NCBI GenBank assembly: GCA_017519405.1 | Contig: JAFWSH010000014.1 | Span: 62,001 to 126,000, forward strand | DNA: 64,000 bases | DNA from: Clostridia bacterium | Lineage (GTDB): Bacteria > Bacillota > Clostridia > Christensenellales > Aristaeellaceae | Direction: 5' to 3' | Notes under the pieces: generated by a model | What the model was told of the DNA's origin: nothing | What the model saw: the letters and a program-made list of their open reading frames with translations, nothing else | The model's database searches: none | Shown: positions 31,843 through 61,530 of the stretch, in pieces | Position numbering within the stretch: the first letter of the stretch is position 1 | Layout of the letters: the number at the start of each line of letters is the position of its first letter | Position numbers and translations under genes: made by a program

Positions 31843-31859
31843 ATACAGGTGCAACTATC

Positions 31860-34013: not shown

Positions 34014-34014
34014 G

Positions 34015-39995: not shown

Positions 39996-40072
39996 GTTGC
40001 CGGGGCCTGTTTTCTCCCCGGTCTCCTGCCATGAAAAAGACCCCGTCCGCCGGATGGGACAGGGTCCTGGGG

Positions 40073-40729: not shown

Positions 40730-40743
40730 TTCTCTTCCCCCTG

Positions 40744-40772
40744 ATTGTATCAGATTCTGCATAATAATGCAA
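40744..40772 (-). promoter_or_regulatory. Promoter of the WYL regulator gene
   Basis: TTGCAT (40772-40767), a 17-base spacer and TACAAT (40749-40744) on the minus strand. Confidence 0.7.
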
Positions 40773-40922
40773 CAGCGGACTGCTTGATTTGGATGGCGAA
40801 TCAGGTTCTTTTTAATACCGCATTGTCCATATGGAAATATTGCGGGTGATTTAGTACGCACATTTTGATGTTTTTTCTGATGAACCGCCCCGGGATCCGG
40901 GCGGGTTGTCATCACAGGATGC
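40773..40922. other. AT-rich intergenic gap before the GTPase-tubulin cluster
   Basis: No gene is visible. The gap contains AT-rich stretches and a GC hairpin near 40886-40908. No convincing plus-strand promoter for the cluster was found, which fits loss of the original 5' end of the first cluster gene. Confidence 0.5.
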
Positions 40923-43751
40923 ATGCGGCGAGTGAATCGGTATTCACCGGCAAATCCCGGTTTGCACGACAGGAAGCCCTGTTCTGTTTGTCTGTGTGAT
41001 GCAGCCGGGAAGAAACGCGGTGTTGGTGCAGGAACTGCCTGGCGCCAGGCCGGCTGGGGGGCTGGACTGCTGCTTGGCCAGCGAAGAACGGTTCCGGCTG
41101 TGACGATGGCCGGCAACGGCGAGGACAGCTACTCTTACACCTATACCCCCCGGGATCTGTTTGGCACAGACCTGATGGACGGAGACCAGATCGTTTACCA
41201 GGCCCGGCTCACTGGCGTGGGTATGGACAAGACCACGGAGCCGTTGAGTGTGACGGTGGAAAACCTGGCTCCGGCGAACACAAAGGGGATTCAGACCAAG
41301 AACAACCCCTTCCTGAACCTGGTGACTCACGATCCCTTCACCGCTACTTATGAAGACGAAAAAGAGGATCTTACCCTCGATCTGAGCGGCTATTTCAACG
41401 AACCGGACGGTGAGGAAATCACCTATACGGCGAAGGAGACTGGCAACGCCAAGCTCTTTGGCGAATTGACCATCGACGAGGATCGCCACACCCTCAGGGC
41501 TGTCACCAAAGACCAGACCACGGATGCCAAGCAGGAGAGCACCATCCATATCACCGCCAAAGACCCGGAGGGGAAAGAAGCAACGCTGGACATTCCTGCC
41601 TCCCTCACAGTGCAGCGTGAGGTGGTCAAGAAAAACTACACGGTGAAAGTCAGTGCCGACACCAATCAGGTGAAGCCCAACGGGAACATCAAATTCACCG
41701 CGAAGCTCTATGACCAGAACGACAAGGAAGTGACAGACAGCAGCAAACTGGCCTGGGTCAATATGGGTACACTGTCCACCACCATGAACTATGAACAGGA
41801 GAACAGGCAGCCCGAAACCCGGGAACTGAAATGGCAGCTGGAAGGCACAGCGTGGACCTGCGAATACGGTTTTCCTGCCAATTCCGGCACGCTGACCATC
41901 AGCGGCTGGAAGCCGGTGATCCAGAACATCCAGATCGGCACAAACGACTACCCCAAGACTTTCAGCACCGACAGCAGCACGCCGAGACTGAAGGAAGGCG
42001 CGGCTGTGCCGGCGTTCACGGACATCCGGCTCCATGATCCCATCACAGGGGAGACAGAGACAGACTACGAGACATATACGGCGGACTGGGATACCACTGT
42101 AAACCTTGCAGAACTGGTGGAGGAGCCCGACGGTGAGGCGCTGTCCTTCCATCTGACGGAGCCCGCCAGCGGGAAGAACGAGGTTGTCACAGCTGTGGTG
42201 GATCAGACGACCGGCAAACTGACGCTGAGCACCAGAGGGGTTGACAAGACTGGCGGAACCACGGTGAACGTGGAAGCCCGGGATCCGGAGAAGAAGTCCT
42301 ACATTTTCTCCATCCCTGTGGAGGTTACCAATGTCAGGGACACCATGGGAGGGTGGCACCTGTCTGCGTCCCTCACAGAACAAAACGGCAAGGCACACCC
42401 CGACGGGACAGCCCTGAACCAGGGAAGCATCTATAACCTGGTCCTCACGCTGCAGGATTCCGAAGACAATGAAATCAGGAACTACGACAAGCTGACGCAG
42501 CTGGTGAATTGCCTGAACGACAGCGGGCTGACCTTCCAGTTCAAGGCGGATAACGCAACACAGGCCGAACCCGTGGAACTGACCTGGAACAAGGAGAACG
42601 GCAAACTGACGGCGGAGTTCACCACGGGACAGAACAAGGGCGAATACAGCCTGGCGGGGAATGCCACGCTCCAGGGCGGCGACATCGAGTTCTCCCTGCA
42701 GGCGCCCTTCACTTGCAAGCTGGAGAATCTGCCCCCCACGCTGAACACTGAGACCTTCGAGGAGAAGGGATATGGCGAGACAGCCCAGCTGGAGATTGAA
42801 CCGCTGCTCTGGCGCCGCAAGAACGACAGCGTGACGGAGATCGACCTGAAGGACCTCTTTACCGACGGCCCCAAGGATCCGCTGCAGTACTATGCCGTCC
42901 GTCTCAGCGACCTGCTGGCGGCCGAGAAGGAGAAGGCGGCGGCCGGTGCCCAGGAGGGCACAACGATCCCCGAGCCTGCAAGGCCGGAGAACGCCGAGGA
43001 GATGGGTCAGCGCTGGGGCAGCCTGGTGGGCAGCAAGGGGACTTTGCCCGCTTCCGCCATGATGGCGCTGGTGACAGGGGAGAATGATCCGGCGGACGAA
43101 CCCGGGCACATTCTGAAGATCGACAACACCGCCGAAGGCAGCGGCGACCACGCTTACGTGCTGGTGGCTGAGGACCGGGACGGACAGAAAGCCTATGCCA
43201 TCTACGACCAGCATGTCATCAGCCAGAAGACGGAGGTCCTCCGGTTGCTCATGTGGATCGGCCTGGGCATTCTCGTCCTCATTATCCTGCAGCAGCTGTT
43301 CTACTGGGTTTTCTACCGCGCCGCCTGGAAGAACAGCCACGGCACAGTGACCACTGTGGTGAACGGCCACAGCACGAACCATACCACCAACTTCAGGCGC
43401 AGCGGCAAGGGTGAGATGAGGCTGTCCGACCTGCAGGTGACGGTGGGATGTGACCAGGCTATGGCCACTGCACTGAAAAAGGATATTGAAGGCTACAAAC
43501 TCCGCCCCGGCAGAAACAACAACGTCATCGTGCGCAGAACCAAAGCGCCCGGCGCCAACTTCACGGTGGCTGTAAATGGGGCGGATATGGGCAGACACAA
43601 GAAGATGAACTGGCCTGCCGGCGGCGTCCTGACCATCAAAGGCACTGCCGCTCAGCCCGGGAAGAGCGTGGATGTCAGGCGGGTCAACATGCCGCAGGGC
43701 GCCGCGCCCAGACCTGCAGCCGCGCCCAGAGCCAACGCCCCCAGGGTGTGA
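40923..43751 (+). CDS. Cluster gene A: single-pass ectodomain protein, apparently 5'-truncated
   Basis: The frame spans up to 942 aa. From about residue 60 it holds tandem beta-rich Ig/cadherin-like units (EEDGEEITYTAKE-like and EPDGEALSFHLTEPA motifs, DxDG-type loops). One transmembrane helix follows near residue 775 (LRLLMWIGLGILVLIILQQL), then a cytoplasmic basic tail with a second small beta domain. It is paralogous to the last cluster gene at 58714: shared layout, a shared LRL-helix anchor and similar C-terminal domain. That paralogue has a signal peptide and about 300 more N-terminal residues, which are missing here. The first 60 residues read as random sequence with no export signal. 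The gene may thus be inactive or have lost its start to recombination. Function unknown. Confidence 0.6.
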   Translation: MRRVNRYSPANPGLHDRKPCSVCLCDAAGKKRGVGAGTAWRQAGWGAGLLLGQRRTVPAVTMAGNGEDSYSYTYTPRDLFGTDLMDGDQIVYQARLTGVGMDKTTEPLSVTVENLAPANTKGIQTKNNPFLNLVTHDPFTATYEDEKEDLTLDLSGYFNEPDGEEITYTAKETGNAKLFGELTIDEDRHTLRAVTKDQTTDAKQESTIHITAKDPEGKEATLDIPASLTVQREVVKKNYTVKVSADTNQVKPNGNIKFTAKLYDQNDKEVTDSSKLAWVNMGTLSTTMNYEQENRQPETRELKWQLEGTAWTCEYGFPANSGTLTISGWKPVIQNIQIGTNDYPKTFSTDSSTPRLKEGAAVPAFTDIRLHDPITGETETDYETYTADWDTTVNLAELVEEPDGEALSFHLTEPASGKNEVVTAVVDQTTGKLTLSTRGVDKTGGTTVNVEARDPEKKSYIFSIPVEVTNVRDTMGGWHLSASLTEQNGKAHPDGTALNQGSIYNLVLTLQDSEDNEIRNYDKLTQLVNCLNDSGLTFQFKADNATQAEPVELTWNKENGKLTAEFTTGQNKGEYSLAGNATLQGGDIEFSLQAPFTCKLENLPPTLNTETFEEKGYGETAQLEIEPLLWRRKNDSVTEIDLKDLFTDGPKDPLQYYAVRLSDLLAAEKEKAAAGAQEGTTIPEPARPENAEEMGQRWGSLVGSKGTLPASAMMALVTGENDPADEPGHILKIDNTAEGSGDHAYVLVAEDRDGQKAYAIYDQHVISQKTEVLRLLMWIGLGILVLIILQQLFYWVFYRAAWKNSHGTVTTVVNGHSTNHTTNFRRSGKGEMRLSDLQVTVGCDQAMATALKKDIEGYKLRPGRNNNVIVRRTKAPGANFTVAVNGADMGRHKKMNWPAGGVLTIKGTAAQPGKSVDVRRVNMPQGAAPRPAAAPRANAPRV

Positions 43752-43757
43752 GCATCC

Positions 43758-43792
43758 GGCTGTCACCCCGGCGCTGTGCCGGGGTGACAGCC
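43758..43792 (+). other. Perfect 15-bp hairpin between cluster genes A and B
   Basis: GGCTGTCACCCCGGC (43758-43772) pairs fully with 43778-43792 around a 5-base loop. No T tract follows, so it is more likely an RNA processing or stability element than a terminator. Confidence 0.75.
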
Positions 43793-43852
43793 GCCCACAA
43801 ACTTGTACCCAATGTGCCATCAGGCATATGAAAATGGAAGGGAGAATGAACC

Positions 43853-46800
43853 ATGCCAAGAGTCGACAAACTCAATGCGCCACTGTTGGTGGTGGGCCTG
43901 GGAGGCACCGGCGCGGACGGACTGCTACGTGTCAAGAGCCTTTTCCAGCAGCGCCTGAACCCGGAGATCATCGGCGGAGAAGAACAGGATCATCCGCCCC
44001 GCACGGCGTTCCTGGAAATCGACACCGACTCCACTGTGCTCAGAAAGCGCTACCAGGGTGTTCGGATCAATCAGAACACCGAGTGGTTCAGCATGCACTG
44101 TGACATGAATCACATTCTGGGTGATGCCAACGGCACACGGGTCCCCATGTATTGCAGGGACTGGCTGAGCCCGGTCTTCTACACGGATCCGCAGATGAGA
44201 AGTGCGGCAATCGAGGGCGCCGGTACCTACCGCCAGCTCTCCCGCTTGATGCTCTTCAACAAGGCGGATGATCTGCACACAAAGCTTTCTGCCACGCTGC
44301 ACCAGCTTGCTGCATGCCCTCAGGGCGCGCCTGTTGGCGAACGGAACGTCAACGTGGTGGTGATCACGGGCTTCAGCGGCGGCACGGGCTCGGGCGCTTT
44401 CCTGGACTTTGCCTATCTGCTGCGCCATGCAGCGGAGCAGCAGAATATCAGCTACACCCTGGAGCTGTACGTGGTGATGCCGGACATCTTTGTCAACAAG
44501 CTGGCCACCGGCGACGGGAAAAAGCGGATACAGTATGAGGCAAACGGGTTCGCGGCGTTGAAGGAACTGGATTACTGGATGGACTACGACAGCCGGCGGG
44601 AGCCCAATGTCCCCGACGAAGCTTTCACCGTGCAGTACAGCGACAGCCTTGTGGTGTCCTGGAACAGCAAGCCCTTTGATGATGTCACGCTGTTGTGCGG
44701 TTCCAACGTGGAGGGCACCATTCTCCAGAATTCCTACGACATTGCCCTGGACGCGGTGGCCCAGATGCTGCTGTTCATCATGGCGGATGAGTCTCAGCGT
44801 ACCGGAACCGATGTGGTGATCAGCAACGGCGCCGATAACTCCACAGCGGATGACACCTACACCTTCCAGTCTGCCAAGAGCAACGAGCATGCCTTTATCC
44901 GTGCGGTGCCCCGGGACTTCCCCCATCTGTATGGCTACCGCTCCATTGGTGCCTTCAGCAATCTGTCCGAGCAGCACAACAAGGTGGTCATCGAGACCAG
45001 CACCCTGCTGACGGATCTTACGGCGTTCTTCCAGAAGCCGGGCCGGATGCCGGTGATGGAGGGCAAGGACCCGGAGGAATTTGCTGAGCCCTTCAGGACC
45101 AAGATCAGCGATCTGATGGCGGCTTTTGTTGCCCAGACGCCCTACCCGGCAGAGGTCACCGACGGTCTGGCACCCTATGACATGCAGTCCCTGCGGAACC
45201 AGGATGAGGAGCTGGCCCCCCACAAGGTGCAGCTGCCCAAATGGATCAAGGACACCATCACGGAGAAGCCCAAGTGGGTGGAAGCCATTCAGGCGGATCT
45301 GCTGGACTTCTTCAAGCGGACGGCGGCGGAATACGTCCGCAACCGGGGGCCCCAGGCGCTGGAGGTTATGCTGTCCGACACAGACCACGGCTTCCTCCGC
45401 TGGCTCCAGGATCGGGCAGAGATGTACAGCGGCGAGAAGAGCCAGTACGCGAATGCCTACAATGCGGCTCTGCAGAACGCTTCCCAGCGTTTTGTGGATT
45501 TCAAGGGACAGAGCGGCATCATGGGTCTGCTGAGGCAGTCGGGTCTGTTCCGGGATTACCTGGGCTTCCTGAAGCAGGCCTTTGAGTCCTACCAGTATCA
45601 GGTGTTCTATGCGGCTGCGGAGGAGGCAGTCCGGGCCGTCCGGACCACCGTTGCCACCCAGGTGCTGGAGGGGAGCCTGGCTCAAACGATCCGTGCCCTG
45701 AAGGAGCTGGAACAGGAATACACGCAGCTGTCTGCCGACATGCCCCAGAGCACGGCCATCCCGGGCCGCATGGAGAGCATCCGCAAGGATATCAGCCACG
45801 CCTATACCGATGAGCACCTCCAGGAGCAGCTGAGGACGGACGCGCTGACGCAGATCTCGGAGATTGCCGTTATGGAGGGCCTGGATCACGAGACGGCGGT
45901 GGAGGAACTGCACGACAGGTTCACCACAGTCCTCAACCGGGCTTTCTTCACCATCAACAACGCCACGCTGCAGGACGAGCTGGCCGGCATCGCGACCGGC
46001 ACCGTTCAGAACTACGCTGCCACCACGATTGCCCCCAACCTTGAGATCGGCGCACAGGTGCTCTTTGCCAACCACACGGATTATCATGTGACCAAGGGCA
46101 ATACCGCCTTCATCTCCTTTGTTAGTGTGCCCCGGAATCAGACGGACGTGAAGCAGGGCATCCGGAACTACATCACCCAGAACGACAAGTACAGCGGGTC
46201 TGTCTTCAAAAACAGTCTGGTGGACGACCAGGTGTTCTGGCTGAATGTGGCGGCGGGTCTGCCGCTGTGCGCCTACCGTTTCCTGGCGGAGTATGAGCGG
46301 GTGTATGAACAGAACAAGGAACGGCCCGGCCTGCATCTGATGCTGGCAGATGACGCCATGCTGGTGCGGCGGAACGAGCGCCGCAGCATCAAGAACGACT
46401 GGACGCTGCTGCCCAGCCCCAACCCCTTCAGAATCCTCCACACTGGCAGCCAGCCCGTGGCACCTGAGCTGCAAACCGCCTGGGCGGCTACGGAACACTG
46501 CCTGTCGGAGATTGAGAAGAGCGGCACCATCGCCATGGATCTCAGCGACCCTGCCAAGCCCAAGTGCAGCATTCATATCTACATGGATGGCGGCAGGATG
46601 ATGGGCGTGGACAAAATGACCGCAAAGGTGTCGGAAGCCATCCAGAGCACCTCCTCCCCCGAGGACTGCCTGACAAAGCTGGAAGCCATCAGGACCGATC
46701 ATACGGTCTGCAAGACTTACCAGATCATGGATCCGCACCAGACAGACCAGCCCCAGGCCAATCACCAGATTGCCATCTTTGCCGGGAAGCTCGGCCTGGA

Positions 46801-47452
46801 CACCCAGGTTGCCGACCAGAAGGAGCAGGCGTTCCGGGAGCTGTCCTACTGGATTCTGTCCCGCAGACCCGAGCTGATCCAGGTGCTGACCAGACAGGTG
46901 GAGCTGGACGGTGTCCTCAACGCGGCAATCCGCAAGGAGCAGGAGGAAATCGCAAAGCGCAGGAAACTGGCTGAGGCCATCCGGACGGTGGCGGAGATGT
47001 ATCTGTTTGAGCGGCTCTCGAACCAGCGCATCAACATCCTGTACCTGAACGACCGGGATGAGCTGGAGACGGCGGGCCAGAGGAATGTCCTCTTTGACCG
47101 GGAGAAGTACTGGGCTCACGAGGAATTCTGGGCCAATTACATTCCGCTGGTGATCCGCATGGTGGAGTGGTACGCCGAGCAGGACCGTACCCTGGAACCC
47201 TTCAGAAGCATCGAGGCCAAGGTGAAGGAGCTGTTCGAACAGGCGAAGAACCTGGAGGACACCCCGGCGGACAACGCCAAGGCCAAAGCGCTGTTGGAGC
47301 GCACGGCGGCGCTGGTCAAGGACATGGAGGACAGGGTCATCGACTTCAAGGTTAACCAGAAGGAACTGCCCAAGGAAGCCTACGACAAAGCGCTCTTTAT
47401 CATGAATGAGATGATCAAGACGTATCGCGGCCTGGGCACAATCTTCATGTAA
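43853..47452 (+). CDS. Cluster gene B: tubulin/FtsZ-like GTPase (Tubulin_2-type)
   Basis: This 1199-aa protein begins with a Rossmann-type nucleotide-binding segment, LLVVGLGGTGADGLLRVK (residues 11-28), and carries the tubulin signature GFSGGTGSGAF at residues 173-183 (GGTGSG). Both are hallmarks of the bacterial tubulin-like superfamily (Tubulin_2), whose members are predicted to polymerise with GTP. The remaining 1000 residues are largely helical and unassigned, with probable coiled coils near the C-terminus (AEQDRTLEPFRSIEAKVKEL). AAGGGAG precedes the ATG. It lies between the ectodomain gene and gene C, in a cluster with a second GTPase, suggesting a GTP-driven cytoplasmic scaffold. The link to defence is inference. 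Confidence 0.82.
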   Translation: MPRVDKLNAPLLVVGLGGTGADGLLRVKSLFQQRLNPEIIGGEEQDHPPRTAFLEIDTDSTVLRKRYQGVRINQNTEWFSMHCDMNHILGDANGTRVPMYCRDWLSPVFYTDPQMRSAAIEGAGTYRQLSRLMLFNKADDLHTKLSATLHQLAACPQGAPVGERNVNVVVITGFSGGTGSGAFLDFAYLLRHAAEQQNISYTLELYVVMPDIFVNKLATGDGKKRIQYEANGFAALKELDYWMDYDSRREPNVPDEAFTVQYSDSLVVSWNSKPFDDVTLLCGSNVEGTILQNSYDIALDAVAQMLLFIMADESQRTGTDVVISNGADNSTADDTYTFQSAKSNEHAFIRAVPRDFPHLYGYRSIGAFSNLSEQHNKVVIETSTLLTDLTAFFQKPGRMPVMEGKDPEEFAEPFRTKISDLMAAFVAQTPYPAEVTDGLAPYDMQSLRNQDEELAPHKVQLPKWIKDTITEKPKWVEAIQADLLDFFKRTAAEYVRNRGPQALEVMLSDTDHGFLRWLQDRAEMYSGEKSQYANAYNAALQNASQRFVDFKGQSGIMGLLRQSGLFRDYLGFLKQAFESYQYQVFYAAAEEAVRAVRTTVATQVLEGSLAQTIRALKELEQEYTQLSADMPQSTAIPGRMESIRKDISHAYTDEHLQEQLRTDALTQISEIAVMEGLDHETAVEELHDRFTTVLNRAFFTINNATLQDELAGIATGTVQNYAATTIAPNLEIGAQVLFANHTDYHVTKGNTAFISFVSVPRNQTDVKQGIRNYITQNDKYSGSVFKNSLVDDQVFWLNVAAGLPLCAYRFLAEYERVYEQNKERPGLHLMLADDAMLVRRNERRSIKNDWTLLPSPNPFRILHTGSQPVAPELQTAWAATEHCLSEIEKSGTIAMDLSDPAKPKCSIHIYMDGGRMMGVDKMTAKVSEAIQSTSSPEDCLTKLEAIRTDHTVCKTYQIMDPHQTDQPQANHQIAIFAGKLGLDTQVADQKEQAFRELSYWILSRRPELIQVLTRQVELDGVLNAAIRKEQEEIAKRRKLAEAIRTVAEMYLFERLSNQRINILYLNDRDELETAGQRNVLFDREKYWAHEEFWANYIPLVIRMVEWYAEQDRTLEPFRSIEAKVKELFEQAKNLEDTPADNAKAKALLERTAALVKDMEDRVIDFKVNQKELPKEAYDKALFIMNEMIKTYRGLGTIFM

Positions 47453-47491
47453 GCTGACCGGAATCGTGTCCGCGTAGAGCGAGACATACAC

Positions 47492-47528
47492 GGATCCCGG
47501 CTGCACGGCATACCGGCAGCCGGGATCC
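47492..47528 (+). other. Perfect 13-bp hairpin between cluster genes B and C
   Basis: GGATCCCGGCTGC (47492-47504) pairs with 47516-47528, and the stem extends by CGG/CCG past a single bulged A. As with the hairpin at 43758, no T tract follows. Confidence 0.75.
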
Positions 47529-47548
47529 AATCCTGAGGAGGCACGGAT

Positions 47549-49924
47549 ATGGGAATGATTCAGGTTGCAGGGGCGTGCAAAAAAACGGTGTTCAGGAAAA
47601 TCCAGACGCATGTGGAGGAGAAACTGAACCAGACGGAGCGCAAGTCCATCAGCTTCAGGATGATGGATGAGCTCAGCGTGAGCACCCGGCTGCTGATTCA
47701 GGAGCTGATTAACCAAGCGGTTGCGGTGCAGGACACCGAACGCAGACTCGACCTGATCATGGTATGCGATGCCGAGGGGCTTGCCGGCAGGGGAACTGAG
47801 GATGTGATCAATCTGATTGAGAAAATCAGGAACCCTGACCTCGGCCTTTTCCATGTCTCCGTCACACTGATCTGGATGACCGGCGAATACCAGGAGGGGA
47901 GCAGCAAGGCACGGAATGCGAGCCTGGAGAAGCTGGCCCGGAATCAGTCCATCGCCCGTGTGGTGATGCTGACAGACCGATGCTCCAACCTGGCGTCCTC
48001 TGATGAGAACCTGCGGATCCAGGCTGCCGCCCTCGTGATCAGCGCTTATCCCCACCTGACAGCCACCCAGTTTGAGCCGGGACTGTACACCGTGGGCGTG
48101 GGCAGTCAGGAGATCACGCAGGAGAACGTGGCGGATTACGCCAGATCAAAAGCCGCCGAAGCCATTATGAGAAGGAGCCTGACCCTCAAAAACAAGCCTG
48201 AGATGGAGATGCTCTGCGCACGGGCCTTTGACACAGACGACCGTGCCATGAGCCTCAAGGAGCATGTACAGGAGATCGTAGCGTCGGTGTGCGTGACCAA
48301 TTTCTGCTACATCAGCGGAGAGGGTGAGCACCACTCCGGGGCGGAGAAGAATCCCCAGATGGATGTCCTGCTGCAGGATAAAGTGGACGCGTGGTCCCGG
48401 AAGATGAAAGTGCTGATGGCGCGGATGCTTTATCCGGAGGACGCGCGGGACTTTTTCAAGAGCGATGAAGCCAGCCAGTTTGAGATGATGCTCAGCGGAA
48501 TCCGTGCCGAATTCGGAGGCGGATTCAACGCCGCCCTGCGTTTCCCGTTATTTGGGGAGGGCAAAAAAGCTGGCCTGGCATACCAACAGTTCATGAGCGA
48601 ACGGCAGCGGAATGTGGCTGCATGTGTGGAGGAGCTTTGCCGCAGGTGGCGGGCAACCCGCAGTAACCTGGAGGAGTATGCAAGACAGCTGATCGCCAGA
48701 CGGGACACGCTGCTGAGCACATACCAGTGTGAACCTGCCTTCGCTGACCGCTGTGAACGGCTCGCCCAGACATATATGAAGGACATCCGGGACCGTATTG
48801 TCTCAAGAATCACGCCAGACCAGAACGATCTGATTTCATGGATTGACGAGCAGGAGGATGGCGACGGCCGCCTGAACGATACGGTGATCCGGAAGCTTCT
48901 GGACTGGGTTCAGGAGCAGGTGATGACTGAGTCCCACACCAGTTTGTTCAGCGATATGGCAGCCTGGGATCTTTCACAGATCAACAGCCGGGTGCTGTCG
49001 CCCATCGGCAATGAGGCGCGGGTCAGCCTGGCCTGCCGCAGGCATGCCGAGATGCCTGCCAGCCGGACCGTCTGCTGCTTCCTGCCGGCTTTCCTGCCGG
49101 ATCTGGCCAACAGAAACATCCAGATGTTGGGGACGGAACCCAGGATGATTCGGGTGAACAACCAGAATTACAGGAATATCGAGGCAGTGGCCCTGGTCTG
49201 GCTGGCCGCATCACAGGACATGGAGAAAGAGGCAAAAAACCTCACAGCCTTCGCGCCGGATATGGACGATGACAACCCGGCTGTACACAGGAACGCTGAG
49301 CAGCAACCGGATGTCCTGCAGGACGAGAAACCGGAGGAGCAGGAGCCTGCCGGGAAGAGCGGGCAGGACCAGGGGAAGACAGCCCGGAGCCCTTGGGGGC
49401 TTCAGATCAGCGGCCAGACGGTTTCCATCAACTGGCCGGACAGAACAATAAAGGAAGTCAATATCCAGCTGGACGGAAAAAAAGTTGCCACCATCCGGTT
49501 TGAAGCGATGGATTACAGCAAAGAGATTCCGCAGGCGGGCACGCCGGGGAAACACACCCTGCGAATCATCAACCCGGACAACGGAGGAGTGCTGGATGCT
49601 GTCGAGTTTTCCGGCAAAAAGGACATCCTCCAGTACGGCAAGAGAAAGACAAAGACCGTCAGTTTGAGCCAGGACGCCGTGCTGGAGACCTATGAGTTGT
49701 ATGTCTATGATGTTGTGCCGGGAGACGGCGCCGGCGGCCAGGGGACACCTCCGCCCTTTGACAGACTCCTGATGCAGCATGGGCGTGACGCGGTAGCGCT
49801 GGGCAACCCCAAGAAAATCGGGCGTGCGCCATATACCTGGTTTGTGGCGGAGATCGCAGAGGTGCCCTATGAGCTGTCGGTGACGGAGGAACTGCTGTCC
49901 AACTATGAGATTATCAGGGTCTGA
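47549..49924 (+). CDS. Cluster gene C: large cytoplasmic partner of the tubulin-like protein
   Basis: This 791-aa soluble protein has no signal peptide. Residues 1-220 look like a Rossmann-like fold (LDLIMVCDAEGLAGRGTEDV, LFHVSVTLIWMTGEYQEGSS, ARVVMLTDRCSNLASSDENL). A long helical middle follows, and a proline/acidic linker near residue 590. The C-terminal 190 residues are beta-rich (QISGQTVSINWPDRTIKEVN, ISTELYVYDV-like). I do not recognise a family. GAGGAGG precedes the ATG. Its position between the tubulin-like gene and the GTPase gene, and its size, suggest it is a cytosolic subunit of the same complex. Confidence 0.65.
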   Translation: MGMIQVAGACKKTVFRKIQTHVEEKLNQTERKSISFRMMDELSVSTRLLIQELINQAVAVQDTERRLDLIMVCDAEGLAGRGTEDVINLIEKIRNPDLGLFHVSVTLIWMTGEYQEGSSKARNASLEKLARNQSIARVVMLTDRCSNLASSDENLRIQAAALVISAYPHLTATQFEPGLYTVGVGSQEITQENVADYARSKAAEAIMRRSLTLKNKPEMEMLCARAFDTDDRAMSLKEHVQEIVASVCVTNFCYISGEGEHHSGAEKNPQMDVLLQDKVDAWSRKMKVLMARMLYPEDARDFFKSDEASQFEMMLSGIRAEFGGGFNAALRFPLFGEGKKAGLAYQQFMSERQRNVAACVEELCRRWRATRSNLEEYARQLIARRDTLLSTYQCEPAFADRCERLAQTYMKDIRDRIVSRITPDQNDLISWIDEQEDGDGRLNDTVIRKLLDWVQEQVMTESHTSLFSDMAAWDLSQINSRVLSPIGNEARVSLACRRHAEMPASRTVCCFLPAFLPDLANRNIQMLGTEPRMIRVNNQNYRNIEAVALVWLAASQDMEKEAKNLTAFAPDMDDDNPAVHRNAEQQPDVLQDEKPEEQEPAGKSGQDQGKTARSPWGLQISGQTVSINWPDRTIKEVNIQLDGKKVATIRFEAMDYSKEIPQAGTPGKHTLRIINPDNGGVLDAVEFSGKKDILQYGKRKTKTVSLSQDAVLETYELYVYDVVPGDGAGGQGTPPPFDRLLMQHGRDAVALGNPKKIGRAPYTWFVAEIAEVPYELSVTEELLSNYEIIRV

Positions 49925-49961
49925 CCATGGCGGCAGACCTTCAGCGAGAGAGGTAGAGATT

Positions 49962-51563: not shown

Positions 51564-51633
51564 GACCCAGCCGTAACCTGGCAGAGGAAACAACGGGGCG
51601 CCGGGAGAACGGATACGGATTGGAGATTGTCGC

Positions 51634-54600: not shown

Positions 54601-56610
54601 GGATCCCTCAGCCAGCTGAGGGATGCCCGGCTGCTCATTGTCCGCCAGAACATCGAGGAGGACATGCTTGCGCTGCTGCAGGCCTCCAAGGATGTCCGGA
54701 ACAAGACACAGGTCCGGGATCTGGAGACCTATGCCAACTGGTACCGTGAGATGCGCCGGCCCGGCTACGAGCGTCTGACTGCGGTTACGGAGGCTCTCTT
54801 CAGGGAAAAACTGTCGGACTGCGCCGAGGATGCCAAGGCACAGGTAGGGGTTGTTCAGCTTTTCTGCAATGCCATGGCGGACGACAAGGGCACCCGGGAA
54901 AATGTGGAAGGGCTGCTGTTTGGCAGATTGCAGGGCAAAAAGCTGAGTGAGCTGATCAGAAATCCGGAAGAGCTGGAGCCCATCCGTGTCTACTGCAGCC
55001 TGCGGCGTGACCGGCGAAGTCTGGCTTCGAATGCGCTGAGCAAAAGCATCGAGATCAGCGGCCAGGATGGCCTGACCATGGAGGACCTGCCCTGCGTGAT
55101 CCAATTCGGAGAATATGCGGGATTGGAGGATATCAGCAGCGACCTCATCAAGGTGCTGCGGGAAGTGGCGGACAGGCCAATGCCGGAGGATGTGCGGTCG
55201 CAGCTGGCTGTTTACTGCAGGGATCATGGACCTCAGGTCCAGAAACTGGTGATGGACTGCATGAGGCAGCGCGTGGCTGATCCGCAACGGGAGGACCGGA
55301 CAGAGGCCGTGACGGATTTGATGGTGCTGCTGCAGGCGGCCGAGGTCAAAACCGAGACTAAACAGAAATATATACTTGAGACGCTGCAGGACCTGGTGGA
55401 ACACCCCGGCCATGTGGAACTCAACCGGGAGACGGTTTCCTCCCTGCTGGAGGCAGTGGCGGAACTCCCGAAGGATCGGATTAAAAAACCCATCATGCGG
55501 CTCTTTGAGGCCTATTGTTCCGCGGAAACATTTCCCCTCATGGACAGTGTGGCAGAAAAACTGGAAATCAGGGTGGAGGAATGTGGACAGGACCAGGCCG
55601 GATGGAGGTCCTATTTCCTGACGCGCATCTCGGACGGTGTGCTGGAGGAGCTGCGCAACGGCGCTGCGGACGTCAAAACCCTCCAGAGTAAGGCCAATGA
55701 GGATCCGCAGATCCGGCAGATGGATGATCTGATTGAGGAACTGCGGTTCTCCCGCAGCAGCATAGCCGGCCAAGTGGTGGAGAAGAAGCGGCAGGAGCTG
55801 CGGGCTGCCTGTACAGACGCTGTGAAAAAGGACAACAGCCTGCAGAACCCGGAGATCCTGTCCGAGGTGATCAGCAGTCTCAACAGCGCACAGGACAGCG
55901 GAATGTTCACCACCTGCCTGGTGGAGGCGGCATTCCGGCATATTCCGGAGCTGCTGGCCGACGACGAGCGCTTCAGCAGCCTGGTGCGGAGTGAGCAGGC
56001 TATCCGCAGCGTCAGACGGTGCTTTCAGCAGCTGGATGTCCGGGAAAATGCGCAGATGCAGGAGAAGCAGCGTGTCGTGGAGGCTGCCTGCACCGTGATG
56101 AACCGGATGGATCGACTGGCTGACAAGGGCATAACGCCCGGCAGGTTGATCAGTGAACTGTCGGGCATGGGCGAGATCAATCTGCCCGGCTGGGCTGCAG
56201 TTCGGGAGGCAGTCTGTCAATACGGGCACGACAAGCTGGAGGCGGCGGGCGCCGAGGCGCGACTGGTTCCGCATCTTTTGTACAACCTGGAGTCCACAGG
56301 GGATGAGCCCAAGGTTCAGTGGCTGCGCTTCCTGTCCGACGCACTGCCCCTGCAGGGCAAAGGCGGCTGGGAGCAGGCGAATCTGTGGAAATCCACAGAG
56401 AATGTCCATGGCAAGCTGGCGCTGTGTCTGCAGTTGCTTGGCCAGGACGGGGCGGAGCAGCTGAACAAGTCCTTCGTCTCCTTCCTCAACGCCAGTGCTA
56501 TCGGCATGAACGCAAGACGCGGGGCCAGATTCAAGGAACTGAAGAAGCATAGTGCACAGATCGGTGAAAACGGTGGTGTCATACTGACCTGGCTTCTGCA
56601 GAACAAATAA
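51634..56610 (+). CDS. Cluster gene E: giant GTPase-associated GAP1-like protein
   Basis: This is a 1658-aa soluble, mostly helical protein. The N-terminus (MKFEQYAYGRGEGGFGSAAS, then GSCWVSKNTRPYGYMHSMIV) matches the GAP1-N pattern of GTPase-associated protein 1, followed by an all-helical middle. Three related segments begin near residues 409, 639 and 865 (KLNAEERRQLTDAWEKVLTR, EPQKTLTAAWETVLARSW, LSKETAEVLADAYDKCL), giving an internal period of about 230 aa. The family is known only as a predicted partner of double-GTPases. The large size and internal repeats suggest a scaffold or effector-recruitment role. TTGGAGA precedes the ATG. Confidence 0.7.
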   Translation: MKFEQYAYGRGEGGFGSAASNGAELLLQGVTGEDVRNQARFSKWDDERMVMELQAFPMGDGSESEFILSGSCWVSKNTRPYGYMHSMIVPPGEETSLETALEFLLCSDDFLAPDTIPDAIDGKIYLQTREVSDEKIRKVWESVAPMASEKVLQELNLHAFLARYWQTCWERLVWLGDRRQTFTPLFVVATSPERFREGDSPEKDTVLIDGVAFFLRHVLPHLPPAVKNMASVSFSSMDTAPDAQRGSACLVCVPTGSAINHAPVYRCFSDSALDNRVDDVVLRIGQEMLENRLPESYLRIQNLENRCFTAERDFDLIYRLVNTEIMLEDIASEQMEEEELQWQMAACLRELTSVSPEALKGEADGYTVQGLLKDDGLTEDEIHQVLFPLELQLAGLMAEKGTKYQADVFRVCTELWKSIPSRCGKLNAEERRQLTDAWEKVLTRTWDELERSPSMPILTAAGDGAISPELRSLLERLLKNGQQFRTQITAENRTTLDQLLLLLLRCRVESHSDLGDALLNKLMEDVDKDSGLLKPAHYLELLKKVLAESKKNGAVVPPEFREKAVGDLASMANRQLQLLREQGDVDGETLYQVYALDRAAEVLCQNGYAGLESLELSLAREISRSGDDYQPACYAKCLKKWRTIGERYKQMPEPQKTLTAAWETVLARSWQPLDWQEDIPVMQVAAMGPTDTAAVRLLERLLKGSQAYSGPITPARSGILDTLFKLVQRCRTEAQSAPDSRLNELGDQLMDYLADHCSREDQLLTPSRYLDQLDEGKPLKDSAREAMLSDLERLLKEHAELVRGQGIQDNRDALEELRFQNDLEARLSKPPMRLPEDVRTRLMADLERMLPVWCTERDRDFEAALYRAMLERAISLPKRSAKLSKETAEVLADAYDKCLTCFYSECGEDRCPMAVMMEQDPQKTIPWEGNVAGAVLESQMIPAGAEKMVDRLIQLRKSEATQKTADLYREILVSGSYNVPEDVFPAYLSGSLSQLRDARLLIVRQNIEEDMLALLQASKDVRNKTQVRDLETYANWYREMRRPGYERLTAVTEALFREKLSDCAEDAKAQVGVVQLFCNAMADDKGTRENVEGLLFGRLQGKKLSELIRNPEELEPIRVYCSLRRDRRSLASNALSKSIEISGQDGLTMEDLPCVIQFGEYAGLEDISSDLIKVLREVADRPMPEDVRSQLAVYCRDHGPQVQKLVMDCMRQRVADPQREDRTEAVTDLMVLLQAAEVKTETKQKYILETLQDLVEHPGHVELNRETVSSLLEAVAELPKDRIKKPIMRLFEAYCSAETFPLMDSVAEKLEIRVEECGQDQAGWRSYFLTRISDGVLEELRNGAADVKTLQSKANEDPQIRQMDDLIEELRFSRSSIAGQVVEKKRQELRAACTDAVKKDNSLQNPEILSEVISSLNSAQDSGMFTTCLVEAAFRHIPELLADDERFSSLVRSEQAIRSVRRCFQQLDVRENAQMQEKQRVVEAACTVMNRMDRLADKGITPGRLISELSGMGEINLPGWAAVREAVCQYGHDKLEAAGAEARLVPHLLYNLESTGDEPKVQWLRFLSDALPLQGKGGWEQANLWKSTENVHGKLALCLQLLGQDGAEQLNKSFVSFLNASAIGMNARRGARFKELKKHSAQIGENGGVILTWLLQNK

Positions 56611-56664
56611 CACGCCGGGAATGTAGTGGAACCAGTTCCAGGAGACTAAAGAGGGGATGTTACG

Positions 56665-57354
56665 GTGACAAGACAACAGCTGCCGGTCAATTGTGTGCAG
56701 GCAGTACTGGCGCTGATAAAGCTGATCCTGATCCTGGTCTTCCCCATGCTGGCTGTAGGCCTTCCCCTGGGCAGATTTGAGCAGATGGCGGGTATCGACG
56801 TGTTCATGCTCAATCGGCTGGGAAACCCTATGGGGATCCTGTATCTGTCCCTGTACGCGGTCCTTTTGCTGAGCAGCTTCGGAATGTTCCGCTCCTTCAG
56901 CGGGCTGACGGCCCTGGTGGTGCTTGCTCTTGAAATCGGCTTCATTGCTGCTGCGTGCACACAGGTGTCCACAACCTGGCTGACCAACATGGTGCTTTCG
57001 GATCCTCAGGTCCGGTCGGTCTACAACAACACAAACAATCTGGCAGCCTGGTTGAAAACCGCGATTCCGGGCTTCAGTCTTGAGGGTGTGCTGAGCTGGC
57101 TGTCCGCGACCTTTCCGGATCGCTTCGGCTCCATGGATGCCGCCGCCCTGGCGGAGAATATCTCCCGCCTTATGTCGGATATTCCCAGGTATGCGGGGAC
57201 GGTGGAGGAGATTGCCCGCAGGATCCTGTTGAGGGCCACGCTGCCGGTGGAGATCTCCATGATCCTGACAACGCTCTACGGAATGTTCCAGTACATCCCG
57301 GTATCTGTCGGCGGGGTAAACATTGGCGGATCAGACCGGTTGGGTTTCCGCTGA
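56665..57354 (+). CDS. Cluster gene F: four-helix membrane protein, paralogue 1
   Basis: This 229-aa protein has about four transmembrane helices (VQAVLALIKLILILVFPMLA, ILYLSLYAVLLLSSFGMF, LVVLALEIGFIAAACTQV, and VEISMILTTLYGMFQYIPV). A long polar loop lies between helices 3 and 4. The GTG at 56665 with GAGGGG upstream is used. It is a distant paralogue of the next two genes: the shared pattern is xxVQAxxAxxKLxxxFxMPMIxL at the start and SMxLTxLYxxF at the end. No known family. Probably a membrane platform for the cluster. Confidence 0.7.
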   Translation: MTRQQLPVNCVQAVLALIKLILILVFPMLAVGLPLGRFEQMAGIDVFMLNRLGNPMGILYLSLYAVLLLSSFGMFRSFSGLTALVVLALEIGFIAAACTQVSTTWLTNMVLSDPQVRSVYNNTNNLAAWLKTAIPGFSLEGVLSWLSATFPDRFGSMDAAALAENISRLMSDIPRYAGTVEEIARRILLRATLPVEISMILTTLYGMFQYIPVSVGGVNIGGSDRLGFR

Positions 57355-57440
57355 TCACACTGATCCGGAGAAAACCCGCTGATGCTGACGCCGTTCAGCC
57401 CATGAAGGCAGAACCCATGAAATGGCAGGAGGTGTGCGCC

Positions 57441-58037
57441 ATGTACAAGCCCAATAGTCCCATCAATGTACTTCAGACGATCATTGCCGTTGTGAAGCTG
57501 GTCATCTTCTTCGTCATGCCCATGATACGGCTGACCTTCTTCGGCTTTACCGTTCCGCTGCTGGGAGACTTCATCGGTTTGCGCGGTCTCGACCTGAACA
57601 ACTTCGGGGCGTGGCTCTGCATCCTCCCCATGGTGCTGTATCTGGTGATGCTGGCATTCAGCGTGGGGCCGCTGCAGCAGTACAGCCTGATTCCGGCCGC
57701 GGTTGCCCTGGTGATTGAAATCATCATCATTGCCTCCGCCGGCAATCTGCTCCCGATTGACACGGTGGCTGCCTGGCTGAAGACCACGTACCCCAGCTTC
57801 GCCGGCGTGGCGGATGTGGGCAGCGGCATCGCCAAAATGCTGCTCCGCCCCAGCACCTCCTTCATCGTCTCCATGGTGCTGACGGTGCTCTATGGCGTGT
57901 TCGCTGTCGTCCCGGCGTCGGATTATATCATGGGCATGCTTGGCCTGGGCGGCGGCGTGCGCCACACGGGCGGCACCGGCACGAGCGGCAGAAGCAGCAC
58001 GGGCGGCCATGGCGGTGCCCGGACACCCAGGGTATAA
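57441..58037 (+). CDS. Cluster gene G: four-helix membrane protein, paralogue 2
   Basis: This 198-aa protein has four transmembrane helices (LQTIIAVVKLVIFFVMPMIR, LCILPMVLYLVMLAFSVGPL, LIPAAVALVIEIIIIASAGN, IVSMVLTVLYGVFAVVP). A glycine-rich polar tail follows (GGVRHTGGTGTSGRSSTG). The ATG at 57441 has AGGAGGTG nine bases upstream. It is paralogous to gene H along most of its length. Confidence 0.7.
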   Translation: MYKPNSPINVLQTIIAVVKLVIFFVMPMIRLTFFGFTVPLLGDFIGLRGLDLNNFGAWLCILPMVLYLVMLAFSVGPLQQYSLIPAAVALVIEIIIIASAGNLLPIDTVAAWLKTTYPSFAGVADVGSGIAKMLLRPSTSFIVSMVLTVLYGVFAVVPASDYIMGMLGLGGGVRHTGGTGTSGRSSTGGHGGARTPRV

Positions 58038-58139
58038 ACATTTCCGGGGCAGCGCTACAGCCGTGGGAATAAACGTCCCTGCAGCCTCGTTCTTATGACA
58101 GGAAGCAAACCATCACTGAATCATGAGGAGGAAATGACC

Positions 58140-58688
58140 ATGAACACAAACCAAAACTCCATCCTGAACGTCGGCCAGGCAGTCGTTGCCATCGCCAAGT
58201 TGGTGATGTACTTCACCATGCCCATGATTGCCCTCGTCGTGCCGGTGATTGGCGAGGTGTTTGGCTTGAAGGGACTGGATCTGTACAACTGGGGCCATGT
58301 GGTGCTCTGTCTTGTTGCCATGATCCTGTATGTGGTGATGCTGATCTTTACCCTGGGACCGCTGCAAAAGATCAGTGTGATCCCCGCTGCGGCAGCGTTG
58401 GTGGTTGAGATCATCATCATGTCCACCGCCAGCGGCCTGATCCCCATCAGCGAATGGGTTACCATTCTGAATCAGCACATTCCGGCAGAGTATGCCAGCT
58501 ATGTCTCGATGGCGGAGGCGATCCTGAAGACCTCCATCCGGCCTGCAACAGGTCTGATCATCTCCATGGTCCTGACGCTGGTCTATGCCGTCCTCCAGTT
58601 CTTCCCCATCATCAGCATTCCGGGCAGCTCCGGCAACAACTCCCGTCCGACGCCTCCGGCAGGCGGCACCTTTACGCCCAGGGTTTGA
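58140..58688 (+). CDS. Cluster gene H: four-helix membrane protein, paralogue 3
   Basis: This 182-aa protein has four helices (VGQAVVAIAKLVMYFTMPMI, VVLCLVAMILYVVMLIFTLG, IPAAAALVVEIIIMSTASGL, LIISMVLTLVYAVLQFFPII). A short polar tail follows. Residues correspond well to gene G (LDLxNxG, GPLQ, SVIPAA, SMVLT). GAGGAGG precedes the ATG at 58140; an in-frame ATG six bases earlier is less well spaced. Confidence 0.7.
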   Translation: MNTNQNSILNVGQAVVAIAKLVMYFTMPMIALVVPVIGEVFGLKGLDLYNWGHVVLCLVAMILYVVMLIFTLGPLQKISVIPAAAALVVEIIIMSTASGLIPISEWVTILNQHIPAEYASYVSMAEAILKTSIRPATGLIISMVLTLVYAVLQFFPIISIPGSSGNNSRPTPPAGGTFTPRV

Positions 58689-58713
58689 TTGACTGCCGAA
58701 AGGATTGTTCCTG

Positions 58714-61467
58714 ATGAAGATGCACCAAAGGGTATGTCTGGTCCTTCTGGCCGCAGTGCTGTTGTCGGTCTGTTTTGCTGCGCCGGCAGAGACGCCGGTG
58801 GAAGGGGACATTGACCTCTATGTGACAACCGCGGCTGTGGAAGGCCGCACGGATTCTCCCGATGTGGATCGTGTGCTGTGGACCCTGCGCTACTTCTATC
58901 CCGACTATATCAGCGTAAACCTGCACGTGGTTGTGCTGGATGGGCAGGAGGCGCGGGAGACATATCATGGCCTGCTGCCGGAGTATCTCGCTCAGCCTGC
59001 AGACGCGAAGGCTGCGAACGGCGGGGAGACCGTGGACTTGGCGCAGGTGCTGGAAGATGCACGCCCGGAAAGGACACGCCTGCTGGTTTTCTGCGGTGAG
59101 GAGCAGGATCCGCTGACGCTTTTGGGTTACGCTTCCCGGGGGAACGTTCCTGTCCCCTTTGCGGCGATCTCTCCTCTGCCCATCCCGGATGGGGAGCCGC
59201 GGGAGACCGAGAGAAAGACGCCCGGCAATCACAGTGGGGAAGGCGTGACAGCAAGGGCTTCAGCCTCCAGCGACCAGGAGGCAGCGTTTCCCATGGTCTG
59301 GCTCCGGGAGAAGGATGGCAGCCTGCTGGAGGCAGCGCTGGATGCCTATCAGCTGTTGGAGCGCGGGGATTTCCCCCAGATCTGCAGCCTGGAGCCTGTG
59401 GAGAACGGACTCATTCACCTGGCACCGCCGGAGGACCGGCCGCAGAGGCTCAACTGCATCATCGTGGAGGGCACGCCGGAAGGACAGACCGACAGTGCGC
59501 TTTTCCCCCGGCAGGAGACAGCTGACTGCATCACTGTTTACGCTGGTGCAGCGGTTGAGGAAGAACAGGTGATCCGGGTTGGATCAACGACAAAAGTCCT
59601 GGTCAACAGGGTGCTGGAGCCATTCCAGATGACGGTCAGCGGTCCGGATGAAAAGGAAACCTTCAGAAGCACGGACCACCCAGCCTTAACAGTGGGCATG
59701 GTGAAAACCGACGGGGAAAACAGCGCTTTCTTCGGAGAAACACAGTACTGGACCATCGGTTCACTTGTCGGTGAACAGCAAACACCGGAGACACGATGGG
59801 CATCAGGGGAGGACAGTGCGCCGAGCGTCACGCTGGACCTTACCCGTCTGACCACCGGGGATTGGCCTGTGGCGGTCACAGCCAATCTGGATGAGTGCCC
59901 GGGGCTGGACTACAGCTGTGTGATCAACCTGCAGGTGAAGAATGACGCGCCCGCCATCAAGGGGGAGCAGACTAGAACTCCTGAGGCGGACTGGTGGCTG
60001 GACACGCCTGTGATGCCGAAGGAAGAGACACAACCTGCCGTCTTCCCGCTGAGGGATTGCTTCACGGACGATGGCGGCGCTGAGAATTTGACTTTCCACG
60101 TTACCCCTGAGGCGGCCTGGTACAGCGTCGCCGATGGTACGCTGACGGTTGACCTGGAGCATATTCCCCGGGACGAGATGCAGACCCTCACAGTGACAGC
60201 GGAGGACAGCGCCGGACAGAAGAGCGAGGAGCTGACCTTCCAGCTGACAGCCCGGTCGGTGCGGGAAGAACTTAAGAAGGCCGAAATCACGCTGATCCCC
60301 ACGGTGCAGGAACGGATCCTCAGCACAGAATTCACGTACCAGCTGCCCGAGAGCCTGCAGAGCTACCTGAACCGGCTCGGGGAGGAACAGGCGGCATTCC
60401 TGGCTGCCCTGACACCCTCGCTGACTCTGGGTGACGAGAGCCTGGAAGTGACGATACCTGACACCTGGAATGGGCTGAAGTGCATCTATTCAGTGGCGGA
60501 CAAAGGTCCATTGCGCACCGGCAGCTATACACTCACCGCGGCGGTTTCCCTGGATGAAGGAGCCGACGAAAGCACAAGGAAGGAAGATATCACTGAAAGC
60601 ACAAGGAAGGAAGACATCACTGTTGAGAATGTGGGCCCGTCCCTGGAGGTAGCGAGCCCTTTGCCGGTCTCGCTGCTGATTCCCGGACCGCTCTTCCTGC
60701 AGAGGGATGTGCCGGAAGCAGAGCAGCAGAAGGCGTATCCGCTGGGACAGCTCATCAAAACAGAGGCGCTGGATAAGATTACGGTAACCCCAAAGGAGGG
60801 GGATATGCGGCTCTTCCGGAATGGCAGCGAGTGGCTGCTGACGGATGAGACAGAGGAACAGATGCCGGAGGGCTGGAAGGCCGCGGACCAGCTGGTCTGG
60901 GATACCACCAATGGGGGAGAGGCGCCCACCCTCATCATTCGCCACCGGGGTTACGGGGAGACCAAACAGACGCTGGAGTTCAAGGATCAGGACAACGGCC
61001 AGGCGAAGCTTACGCTGACAATTACCGCACTCTACCGGAATGATGCCATGCTGCGGCTGATCCTGTGGATTGTCATCGGCATAGTGGCGGCGGTCATCGT
61101 TGCAGCGGTCATCCGACAGCTGCTGAAGCCCCGCTTCACGCCGGACAGCAAACTGCAAGTCCGGTTCGGACAGTATAAGGGTATGCTGCCGCTGGTGAGC
61201 TGGGGCAAAAAGGGTATCAGTCTGACCGATGTGTTGATCTATACCGGCATCCCCTATGCGGGCGAGCTGCCCCCCAAACTCAACAAGCTGATGCTGATGC
61301 CGGGAGGGAATAAGTGCGGCCTCATGCTGTGCAATGCCGCCAGGTGTGACGTCATGGTGACCAAGGATGGTGCCGATCAGGACAGTAACAAGATCCGGAT
61401 CGACAGCGGCAACGAGGTGAAGATTGGTCTGGAGGACGGCTCCAGCCTCATCCTCAGCATCGACTGA
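58714..61467 (+). CDS. Cluster gene I: signal-bearing single-pass ectodomain protein
   Basis: This 917-aa protein begins with a signal peptide (MKMHQRVCLVLLAAVLLSVC). An N-terminal domain comes next (TTAAVEGRTDSPDVDRVLWT, VNLHVVVLDGQEARETYHGL), then tandem beta-rich Ig/cadherin-like units. One transmembrane helix lies near residue 780 (LRLILWIVIGIVAAVIVAAV), followed by a cytoplasmic beta domain. A 9-residue unit ESTRKEDIT is duplicated near residue 620. The ATG at 58714 follows AAAGGA; a TTG three codons earlier is possible. The extracellular part faces outward and the C-terminal domain faces the GTPase proteins, so it may sense the surface and signal inward. A terminator follows 26 bases after the stop. 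Confidence 0.78.
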   Translation: MKMHQRVCLVLLAAVLLSVCFAAPAETPVEGDIDLYVTTAAVEGRTDSPDVDRVLWTLRYFYPDYISVNLHVVVLDGQEARETYHGLLPEYLAQPADAKAANGGETVDLAQVLEDARPERTRLLVFCGEEQDPLTLLGYASRGNVPVPFAAISPLPIPDGEPRETERKTPGNHSGEGVTARASASSDQEAAFPMVWLREKDGSLLEAALDAYQLLERGDFPQICSLEPVENGLIHLAPPEDRPQRLNCIIVEGTPEGQTDSALFPRQETADCITVYAGAAVEEEQVIRVGSTTKVLVNRVLEPFQMTVSGPDEKETFRSTDHPALTVGMVKTDGENSAFFGETQYWTIGSLVGEQQTPETRWASGEDSAPSVTLDLTRLTTGDWPVAVTANLDECPGLDYSCVINLQVKNDAPAIKGEQTRTPEADWWLDTPVMPKEETQPAVFPLRDCFTDDGGAENLTFHVTPEAAWYSVADGTLTVDLEHIPRDEMQTLTVTAEDSAGQKSEELTFQLTARSVREELKKAEITLIPTVQERILSTEFTYQLPESLQSYLNRLGEEQAAFLAALTPSLTLGDESLEVTIPDTWNGLKCIYSVADKGPLRTGSYTLTAAVSLDEGADESTRKEDITESTRKEDITVENVGPSLEVASPLPVSLLIPGPLFLQRDVPEAEQQKAYPLGQLIKTEALDKITVTPKEGDMRLFRNGSEWLLTDETEEQMPEGWKAADQLVWDTTNGGEAPTLIIRHRGYGETKQTLEFKDQDNGQAKLTLTITALYRNDAMLRLILWIVIGIVAAVIVAAVIRQLLKPRFTPDSKLQVRFGQYKGMLPLVSWGKKGISLTDVLIYTGIPYAGELPPKLNKLMLMPGGNKCGLMLCNAARCDVMVTKDGADQDSNKIRIDSGNEVKIGLEDGSSLILSID
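60568..60621 (+). repeat. 27-bp in-frame tandem duplication in gene I
   Basis: Copies 60568-60594 and 60595-60621 differ at one base. They encode ESTRKEDIT twice, in a linker between two beta domains. Confidence 0.9.
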
Positions 61468-61493
61468 GGACGCTGAGATCCTGAAAACAACAA

Positions 61494-61530
61494 ACGACAG
61501 ACGGCGTATGACATGCCGTCTGTCGTTTTT
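61494..61530 (+). terminator. Strong terminator closing the GTPase-tubulin cluster
   Basis: A perfect 12-bp stem, ACGACAGACGGC (61494-61505) with 61515-61526, is followed by T residues. It marks the 3' limit of the nine-gene unit. Confidence 0.9.

Follow-up and report, generated by a model that had tools for sequence, protein, structure and literature searches.

What kind of system is built from a tubulin-like GTPase, a GTPase of a second fold, a set of membrane proteins, and proteins that face outward? The question is raised by nine consecutive genes, A to I, in a 64,000-nucleotide stretch of DNA (hereafter the window) from a Clostridia bacterium of the family Aristaeellaceae (assembly GCA_017519405.1, contig JAFWSH010000014.1, positions 62,001 to 126,000 of the forward strand). 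The source genome comprises 2.27 Mb in 37 contigs and is about 80% complete. Our comparisons show that the cluster is real and conserved, with B, D, E, F/G/H, and I forming a linked module in conserved order. We tentatively read it, at a little under an even chance, as a clostridial version of the FtsZl1/vWA/GTPase membrane operon, to which the polymer mechanism outlined below would apply. Among the DO-GTPase/GAP1-N2 systems, that operon would represent the tubulin theme.

A preliminary description of this DNA, made from the sequence alone, held the combination of genes to be undescribed. That claim does not survive, as two groups of systems of this kind are already in print. The available text of Makarova and Koonin (2010; PMC2875224) describes operons, found in diverse archaea and bacteria, that join the FtsZl1 tubulin to a distinct GTPase, membrane proteins and, in the majority, vWA, and proposes membrane remodeling as their role. 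DO-GTPase/GAP1-N2 systems were described by Kaur et al. (2020; PMC7159879), whose available text reports that about 52% are tubulin centered, places them in firmicutes and actinobacteria, lists vWA and FNIII partners, and proposes a role in biological conflict. The membrane setting and the link with double-GTPase systems, both proposed in the preliminary description, are supported. The accessible part of a 2023 study regards Tubulin_2 proteins as a divergent FtsZ-like group, and that of a 2024 paper mentions DO-GTPase in phage-shock operons.

Conservation of the gene cluster

Loci for comparison were drawn from the best 80 of 428 relatives of B, of which 79 were kept, and 74 of these 79 also carry a match to D. 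Four of the remaining five (L025, L055, L077, and L083) lie on contigs of 5-11 kb, while L058 does not. A family sample of 308 genomes and a class-wide sample of 391, both including the source genome, were also searched. B was found in 21 family genomes, D in 20, and both in 16, and all 15 family genomes with a D match below an E-value of 1e-20 also have B; class-wide, B was found in 10 genomes. Within the lineage, the joint loci and genomes contradict an independent occurrence of these genes, the possibility that the preliminary description had raised against itself, although further away tubulin and DO-GTPase are found uncoupled.

Gene neighborhoods compared across Clostridia, as that description had suggested, keep their order in relatives. 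The arrangement A-B-C-D-E-F-I recurs in G068, G067, G281, G374, G308, G348, G216, and G227; B occurs twice in G067 and G374, and in G227 a multi-transmembrane (multi-TM) gene separates A from B. The order of I and F is swapped in G328 and G344, and G266 has no F between E and I; contig ends truncate the clusters of G094, G019, G266, and L030. Six clusters (G216, G227, G281, G374, G308, and G067) have an extra multi-TM gene with 4-6 helices called, and all three of its products that were scanned (L045, G374, and G308) match VWA. This gene is absent from the window cluster. Extra genes follow it at L137:9472-11421 (G308) and L132:1277-3955 (G281), one encoding a transglutaminase-like domain, the other carboxypeptidase-regulatory-like repeats together with a zinc ribbon.

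In the window itself, the preliminary description was right in seeing nine consecutive plus-strand genes and one apparent terminator (Table 1). The 9-nt loop of the terminator exceeds the limits of our hairpin scan, hence its absence from that scan. No sigma-70-like promoter turned up when positions 40000-45000 were scanned with a consensus, so a single transcript for the cluster is plausible. B, C, D, F, G, and H have clear ribosome-binding sites, and those of E and I are weaker; the better sites place the starts of D, G, and H at 49962, 57441, and 58140. That the genes are unrelated transcription units merely lying side by side is highly improbable: a hairpin stands between A and B and no promoter was identified, but the order is conserved in divergent clusters and B and D co-occur. 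No other copy of the hairpin was found among four DNA matches in the source genome, with 40 of 127 first-look candidates scored.

The patchy distribution of B in the family and class samples leans toward an accessory, possibly conflict-related, role. It also counts against the idea that the cluster is housekeeping membrane remodeling or vesicle machinery with no part in conflict, which would follow Makarova and Koonin. This idea appears rather unlikely to us, yet it draws on the finding that diverse bacteria and archaea share FtsZl1 operons in which TM proteins and vWA occur, as far as the available text of their paper describes it, and on the Pfam search, in which none of the nine proteins resembled a nuclease or toxin; PADLOC profiles also gave nothing useful for them (best E-value, 0.034). 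NCBIfam names were equally uninformative for the nine (best E-value, 0.0038).

DO-GTPase2 without the tubulin and B without the DO-GTPase both exist, which suggests that modules are exchanged at a larger scale, yet they are joined in this lineage. We considered DO-GTPase2 loci from other families of the order as further tubulin clusters and rejected them, since none of the 11 mapped has a B match. HSP70-type DO-GTPase/GAP1 loci from the order (G586b, G180, G419, and G614) are like the window in having a DO-GTPase match with a GAP1-position protein downstream, but unlike it they have no B match in the ~28 kb of sequence retrieved; their IDLGTTYS-motif proteins we take to be HSP70-like. A second kind of cluster has a B-type tubulin and no DO-GTPase or GAP1 match (G733, G978, G703, G275, and G273; loci L238/L239, L241/L242, L243/L244, L247, and L248/L249). 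Here an ectodomain/TM protein lies upstream, and a two-TM protein of 653-700 residues and a multi-TM protein of 996-1465 residues lie downstream; neither downstream protein has a Pfam match in G733. The protein downstream of B in this second cluster type was also tried as a tubulin and rejected (profile match of 0.6% or less, five sequences).

Table 1. Features of the window cluster, with positions counted from the first nucleotide of the window
Feature	Description	Position	Strand	Basis
A-I	Nine ORFs (open reading frames), back to back	40923-61467	+	ORF listing
A	Putative remnant of a vWA/immunoglobulin (Ig) single-pass ectodomain protein	41121-43751 (ORF from 40923)	+	tblastn, hydropathy
Inverted repeat	Perfect, 16 bp, 5-nt loop, no T run, between A and B	43757-43793	.	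Hairpin scan
B	Tubulin_2 (FtsZl1) GTPase; predicted two-domain tubulin/CetZ core with long helical insertion at ~372-745	43853-47452	+	Pfam, model
C	Probable GTPase-dead tubulin paralogue; coiled coil, C-terminal FNIII-like beta domain	47549-49924	+	Profiles, model
D	DO-GTPase2 with split zinc-ribbon-like CxxC pair	49962-51563 (ORF from 49905)	+	Pfam, motifs
E	Giant helical protein in GAP1 position; N-terminal ~370 residues possibly GAP1-N2 plus GAP1-M	51634-56610	+	Profile comparison
F	Membrane protein, three helices called, paralogue of G/H	56665-57354	+	Hydropathy, pairwise comparison
G	Four-helix membrane protein with a Gly-rich tail that ends in TPRV	57441-58037 (ORF from 57402)	+	Hydropathy, pairwise comparison
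H	Four-helix membrane protein, tail ending TPRV	58140-58688 (ORF from 58095)	+	Hydropathy, pairwise comparison
I	N-terminal hydrophobic segment, Ig-like domains, one TM, cytoplasmic part	58714-61467 (ORF from 58705)	+	Hydropathy, alignment
Terminator	Intrinsic terminator-like stem-loop, 9-nt loop, then T run, 3' of I	61496-61530	+	Read from sequence

The tubulin-like proteins B and C

B matches Tubulin_2 in Pfam with an E-value of 1.1e-46, and the nucleotide loops T1 (GGTG) and T4 (GGTGSG type) are present in all 32 B sequences compared. Together with D, discussed below, this bears out the view that the cluster encodes two different GTP-binding folds. Structure models were made for B and C. 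The model of B, from which we predict a full tubulin core, has both tubulin domains, including the activation domain, interrupted by a helical insertion of ~370 residues. New here is that the C-terminal region of B, left unassigned in 2010, is modeled as a tubulin domain. Comparison of the models with solved structures was a re-alignment of the top chains from Foldseek (50 rows), in which the absence of other folds is uninformative. By sequence, the best match of B to a solved structure is a splicing factor (E-value, 0.0033), with FtsZ at just 0.86. Residue E313, conserved in 30 of 32 sequences, is only a candidate for the T7 acidic residue. The nearest named relatives of B come from metagenome-assembled genomes of uncultured Clostridia/Clostridiales, several from ruminants, and a plasmid search with B gave three records, with distant matches from the Thermus group.

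We also report a broken second B elsewhere in the same genome (L012; contig C20, 59113-61628). It is 55-65% identical to B, is split into two frames, stops near B residue 830-844, and has GATGSG in place of GGTGSG. An ORF resembling G and H lies on the opposite strand of this contig at ~66.5-66.9 kb, ~5 kb from the broken B, and ends in APHL. An uncultured Gemmiger (L099, 9785-19492) carries three B-type tubulin ORFs in tandem upstream of a DO-GTPase match, the last of them with an acidic-aromatic tail.

C, previously unannotated, is probably a second tubulin that lacks the GTP loops and has an FNIII-like end, judging by its profile matches and its model. T1 or T4 loops were found in none of 15 C sequences and in none of 23 sequences of Q, the second tubulin-like protein of Bacilli clusters, so the label we use is tubulin paralogue rather than tubulin GTPase. 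Strands are predicted at C residues 619-696 with a predicted local distance difference test score (pLDDT) of about 60, and C has no FNIII match in Pfam. Its best sequence match to a solved structure has an E-value of 0.13. A probable dead-tubulin partner alongside a complete tubulin core makes the old prediction testable in vitro.

The DO-GTPase, the GAP1-position protein, and the membrane components

D, a TRAFAC GTPase, matches DO-GTPase2 with an E-value of 1.9e-7 (Pfam) and contains the motifs GCTAAGKT, DCAGE, and TKCD. Its split CxxC pair (CPYC/CPNC) agrees with the earlier assignment of a zinc-ribbon GTPase, and D has both the ribbon and the Walker B glutamate that mark a Kaur-type DO-GTPase. 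For E, the earlier assignment as GAP1-like is weakly supported. Its N-terminal region aligns collinearly with the Bacilli GAP1 profile in hhalign (69-371/75-364, 272 columns, score 33.2), with a weak significance (E-value, 0.0018; probability, 15%), and the whole of E reaches a probability of 5.7% and an E-value of 0.0067 against the Bacilli GAP1 profiles. Control comparisons of the E profile with pieces of C, B, and I gave scores of 11.1-22.4, with no more than 59 columns aligned, and further pairs of unrelated profiles stayed at or below 23.7, with 66 columns at most. What did not hold is recognition by Pfam: the E of the window has no GAP1 match, and none of 12 clostridial E proteins has one or any other informative match. 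The best sequence match of E to a solved structure has an E-value of 0.32. Taken together, the profile comparisons are suggestive of homology between E and GAP1.

F, G, and H are the three membrane paralogues that had been proposed, with 27.5% identity between F and G (E-value, 1e-14) and 40.5% between G and H (8e-43). Of the two outward-facing proteins that had been described, I retains that interpretation: a simple hydropathy scan calls TM segments at residues 10 and 785, the latter C-terminal. I was aligned with nine relatives, and it has a Big_6 match at just 0.047 (Pfam) and a region that, by eye only, may be a degenerate vWA. Pfam was uninformative across 10 I-family members (YtkA in one, 0.0032; PKD in two, best 0.0061).

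A, by comparison, no longer looks like a working outward sensor. A of its closest relative, RUG11012 (L026), is 1235 residues long with a VWA match, and its alignment with the window does not begin until residue 424 of that protein (tblastn; window 41121-43694, 26% identity, E-value 4e-70). Full-length A proteins of Clostridia clusters have 1039-1235 residues (729 in the more distant L057) and an N-terminal hydrophobic segment, and all three relatives' proteins scanned (L014, L016, and L026) match VWA. Guanine plus cytosine (GC) is not favored at third positions over the opening ~60 codons of ORF A (0.53, against 0.72-0.82 in B-I), and no good ribosome-binding site precedes the given start. 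The window protein keeps the C-terminal TM (residue 771), the cytoplasmic part, and a tail ending APRV. From these alignments, gene A appears to have lost its N-terminus, including the vWA domain, either by true deletion or through an assembly fault.

Since vWA is absent from the window and A is truncated, the window copy would be a reduced derivative; with its sensor side reduced in this way, and the multi-TM vWA gene missing as well, it may be specialized or decaying. We nonetheless consider it quite unlikely that the copy is a remnant in decay that no longer has any function. The loss of the A front, the poor start of A, the missing multi-TM vWA gene, and the broken second B with its altered loop would fit decay, but B-I are all long intact ORFs that maintain their third-position GC bias, several with clear ribosome-binding sites, and F, G, and H have multiplied and diverged rather than been lost.

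The C-termini of the membrane proteins were also compared. In the window, A, G, and H end in PRV and F in GFR, and in the nearest relative A ends in PSI and F in PML; A, F, and the multi-TM protein have acidic-aromatic ends in G216, G227, G281, and G308. If the tails serve as docking tags, these would be acidic-aromatic in some lineages, whereas the window and the relative nearest to it would have P-x-aliphatic ones. The tail pattern, picked by eye after the tails had been seen, occurs in 15 of 33 membrane components and, within these loci, in none of the 131 remaining ORFs. As a general pattern it failed on previously unseen clusters (2 of 43 membrane proteins versus 3 of 49 others), and in a wider background it was found in 12 of 325 ORFs, compared with 1 of 325 for the P-x-aliphatic type. 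Tail classes of A and F, which were assigned by hand, with that of the window taken from G and H since F (GFR) does not fit, are the same in 9 of 11 clusters (permutation, 0.0024), or in 7 of 9 after one of each near-identical pair is dropped (0.0099). F, G, H, and the F of the nearest relative are homologous, and their tails are therefore not independent. At the level of lineages, these data give a hint of a shared docking site.

Relation to known systems and a possible mechanism

As far as the accessible text of Kaur et al. describes their tubulin-type systems, the window shares with them a coiled-coil tubulin, a zinc-ribbon DO-GTPase, and a downstream protein in the GAP1 position; the possible FNIII-like component at the end of C and the vWA/TM partners of its relatives would also match the firmicute systems. 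It differs in that E has no recognizable GAP1-N2, in that the FNIII-like end is fused to the GTP-motif-less C, and in its four-TM F/G/H (F tripled) and ectodomain protein I. The firmicute form has two vWA proteins, whereas the window lacks the multi-TM vWA protein and has a truncated A. Measured against the available description of the FtsZl1 operons, the window has an FtsZ-like protein with a coiled coil and helical C-terminus, a P-loop GTPase, and TM proteins; the vWA of those operons is present in relatives, but no Pfam match to it, nor any to OmpA or kinase domains, was found among the nine proteins of the window.

Paenibacillus massiliensis (L035) offers a direct comparison, with the order vWA, B, Q, multi-TM vWA, a ~215-residue protein, DO-GTPase2, and GAP1-N2. 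Two of its proteins are VWA proteins, and its GAP1 protein matches both GAP1-N2 (2.8e-43) and GAP1-M (5.6e-26). Unlike the window, Bacilli clusters of this type encode the ~215-residue protein (FNIII-like by eye, with no Pfam match) as a separate gene, and their maps show no four-TM F or ectodomain I.

In the mechanism we envisage, B would use GTP to build a filament or ring, C would join it as a non-hydrolyzing partner or cap, and D/E would form a GTP-dependent switch that allows assembly or sets it off. The polymer would be tethered beneath the membrane by F/G/H and by the cytoplasmic tails of A and I, while the ectodomains (that of I, and normally also the vWA of A) would report envelope events, so that signals may pass from outside to inside. 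Assembly would then remodel or breach the membrane on demand, as a defense or stress response. A more specific version, possible but doubtful, is a two-tubulin machine in which B and a dead C with an FNIII-like adaptor pair as alpha and beta do, and which is tethered by unrelated membrane proteins that have a single C-terminal docking tag in common within each lineage; a shared cytoplasmic receptor would read the tags and switch along with them.

Several observations weigh against the reading of the cluster as a polymer-forming variant of the known operons. The direct profile match of C to B is weak (probability, 6-10%); taken by themselves, the N-terminal pieces of C reach 1.1% against B and, over 41 columns, 16.7% against Q, the C-Q match spans window C residues 131-421, which are mostly helices, and the model of C is poor (pLDDT, 56). 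To these are added the missing Pfam recognition of E and the loss of sensor parts (the A front and vWA) in this genome. Judged by titles and the starts of abstracts, searches of open-licence PubMed Central listed no experiment on cluster members. FtsZl1-type tubulins entered the literature in 2010, and what has been a vague "membrane remodeling or conflict system" would be sharpened by the folds predicted for B and C. If B and C do co-assemble under the membrane and are switched by the DO-GTPase, they would constitute a bacterial hetero-tubulin cytoskeleton outside cell division and plasmid segregation.

Directly upstream of the truncated A, a minus-strand frame (40073-40745) encodes what we take, by eye, to be a winged-helix/WYL-like regulator; a longer frame of this region was scanned and had no Pfam match. 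Genes for a serine recombinase, an HNH endonuclease, and a Schlafen AlbA_2 protein adjoin a tRNA-Val gene at 30180-34090, ~7 kb upstream of the cluster, and together they look like a mobile element.

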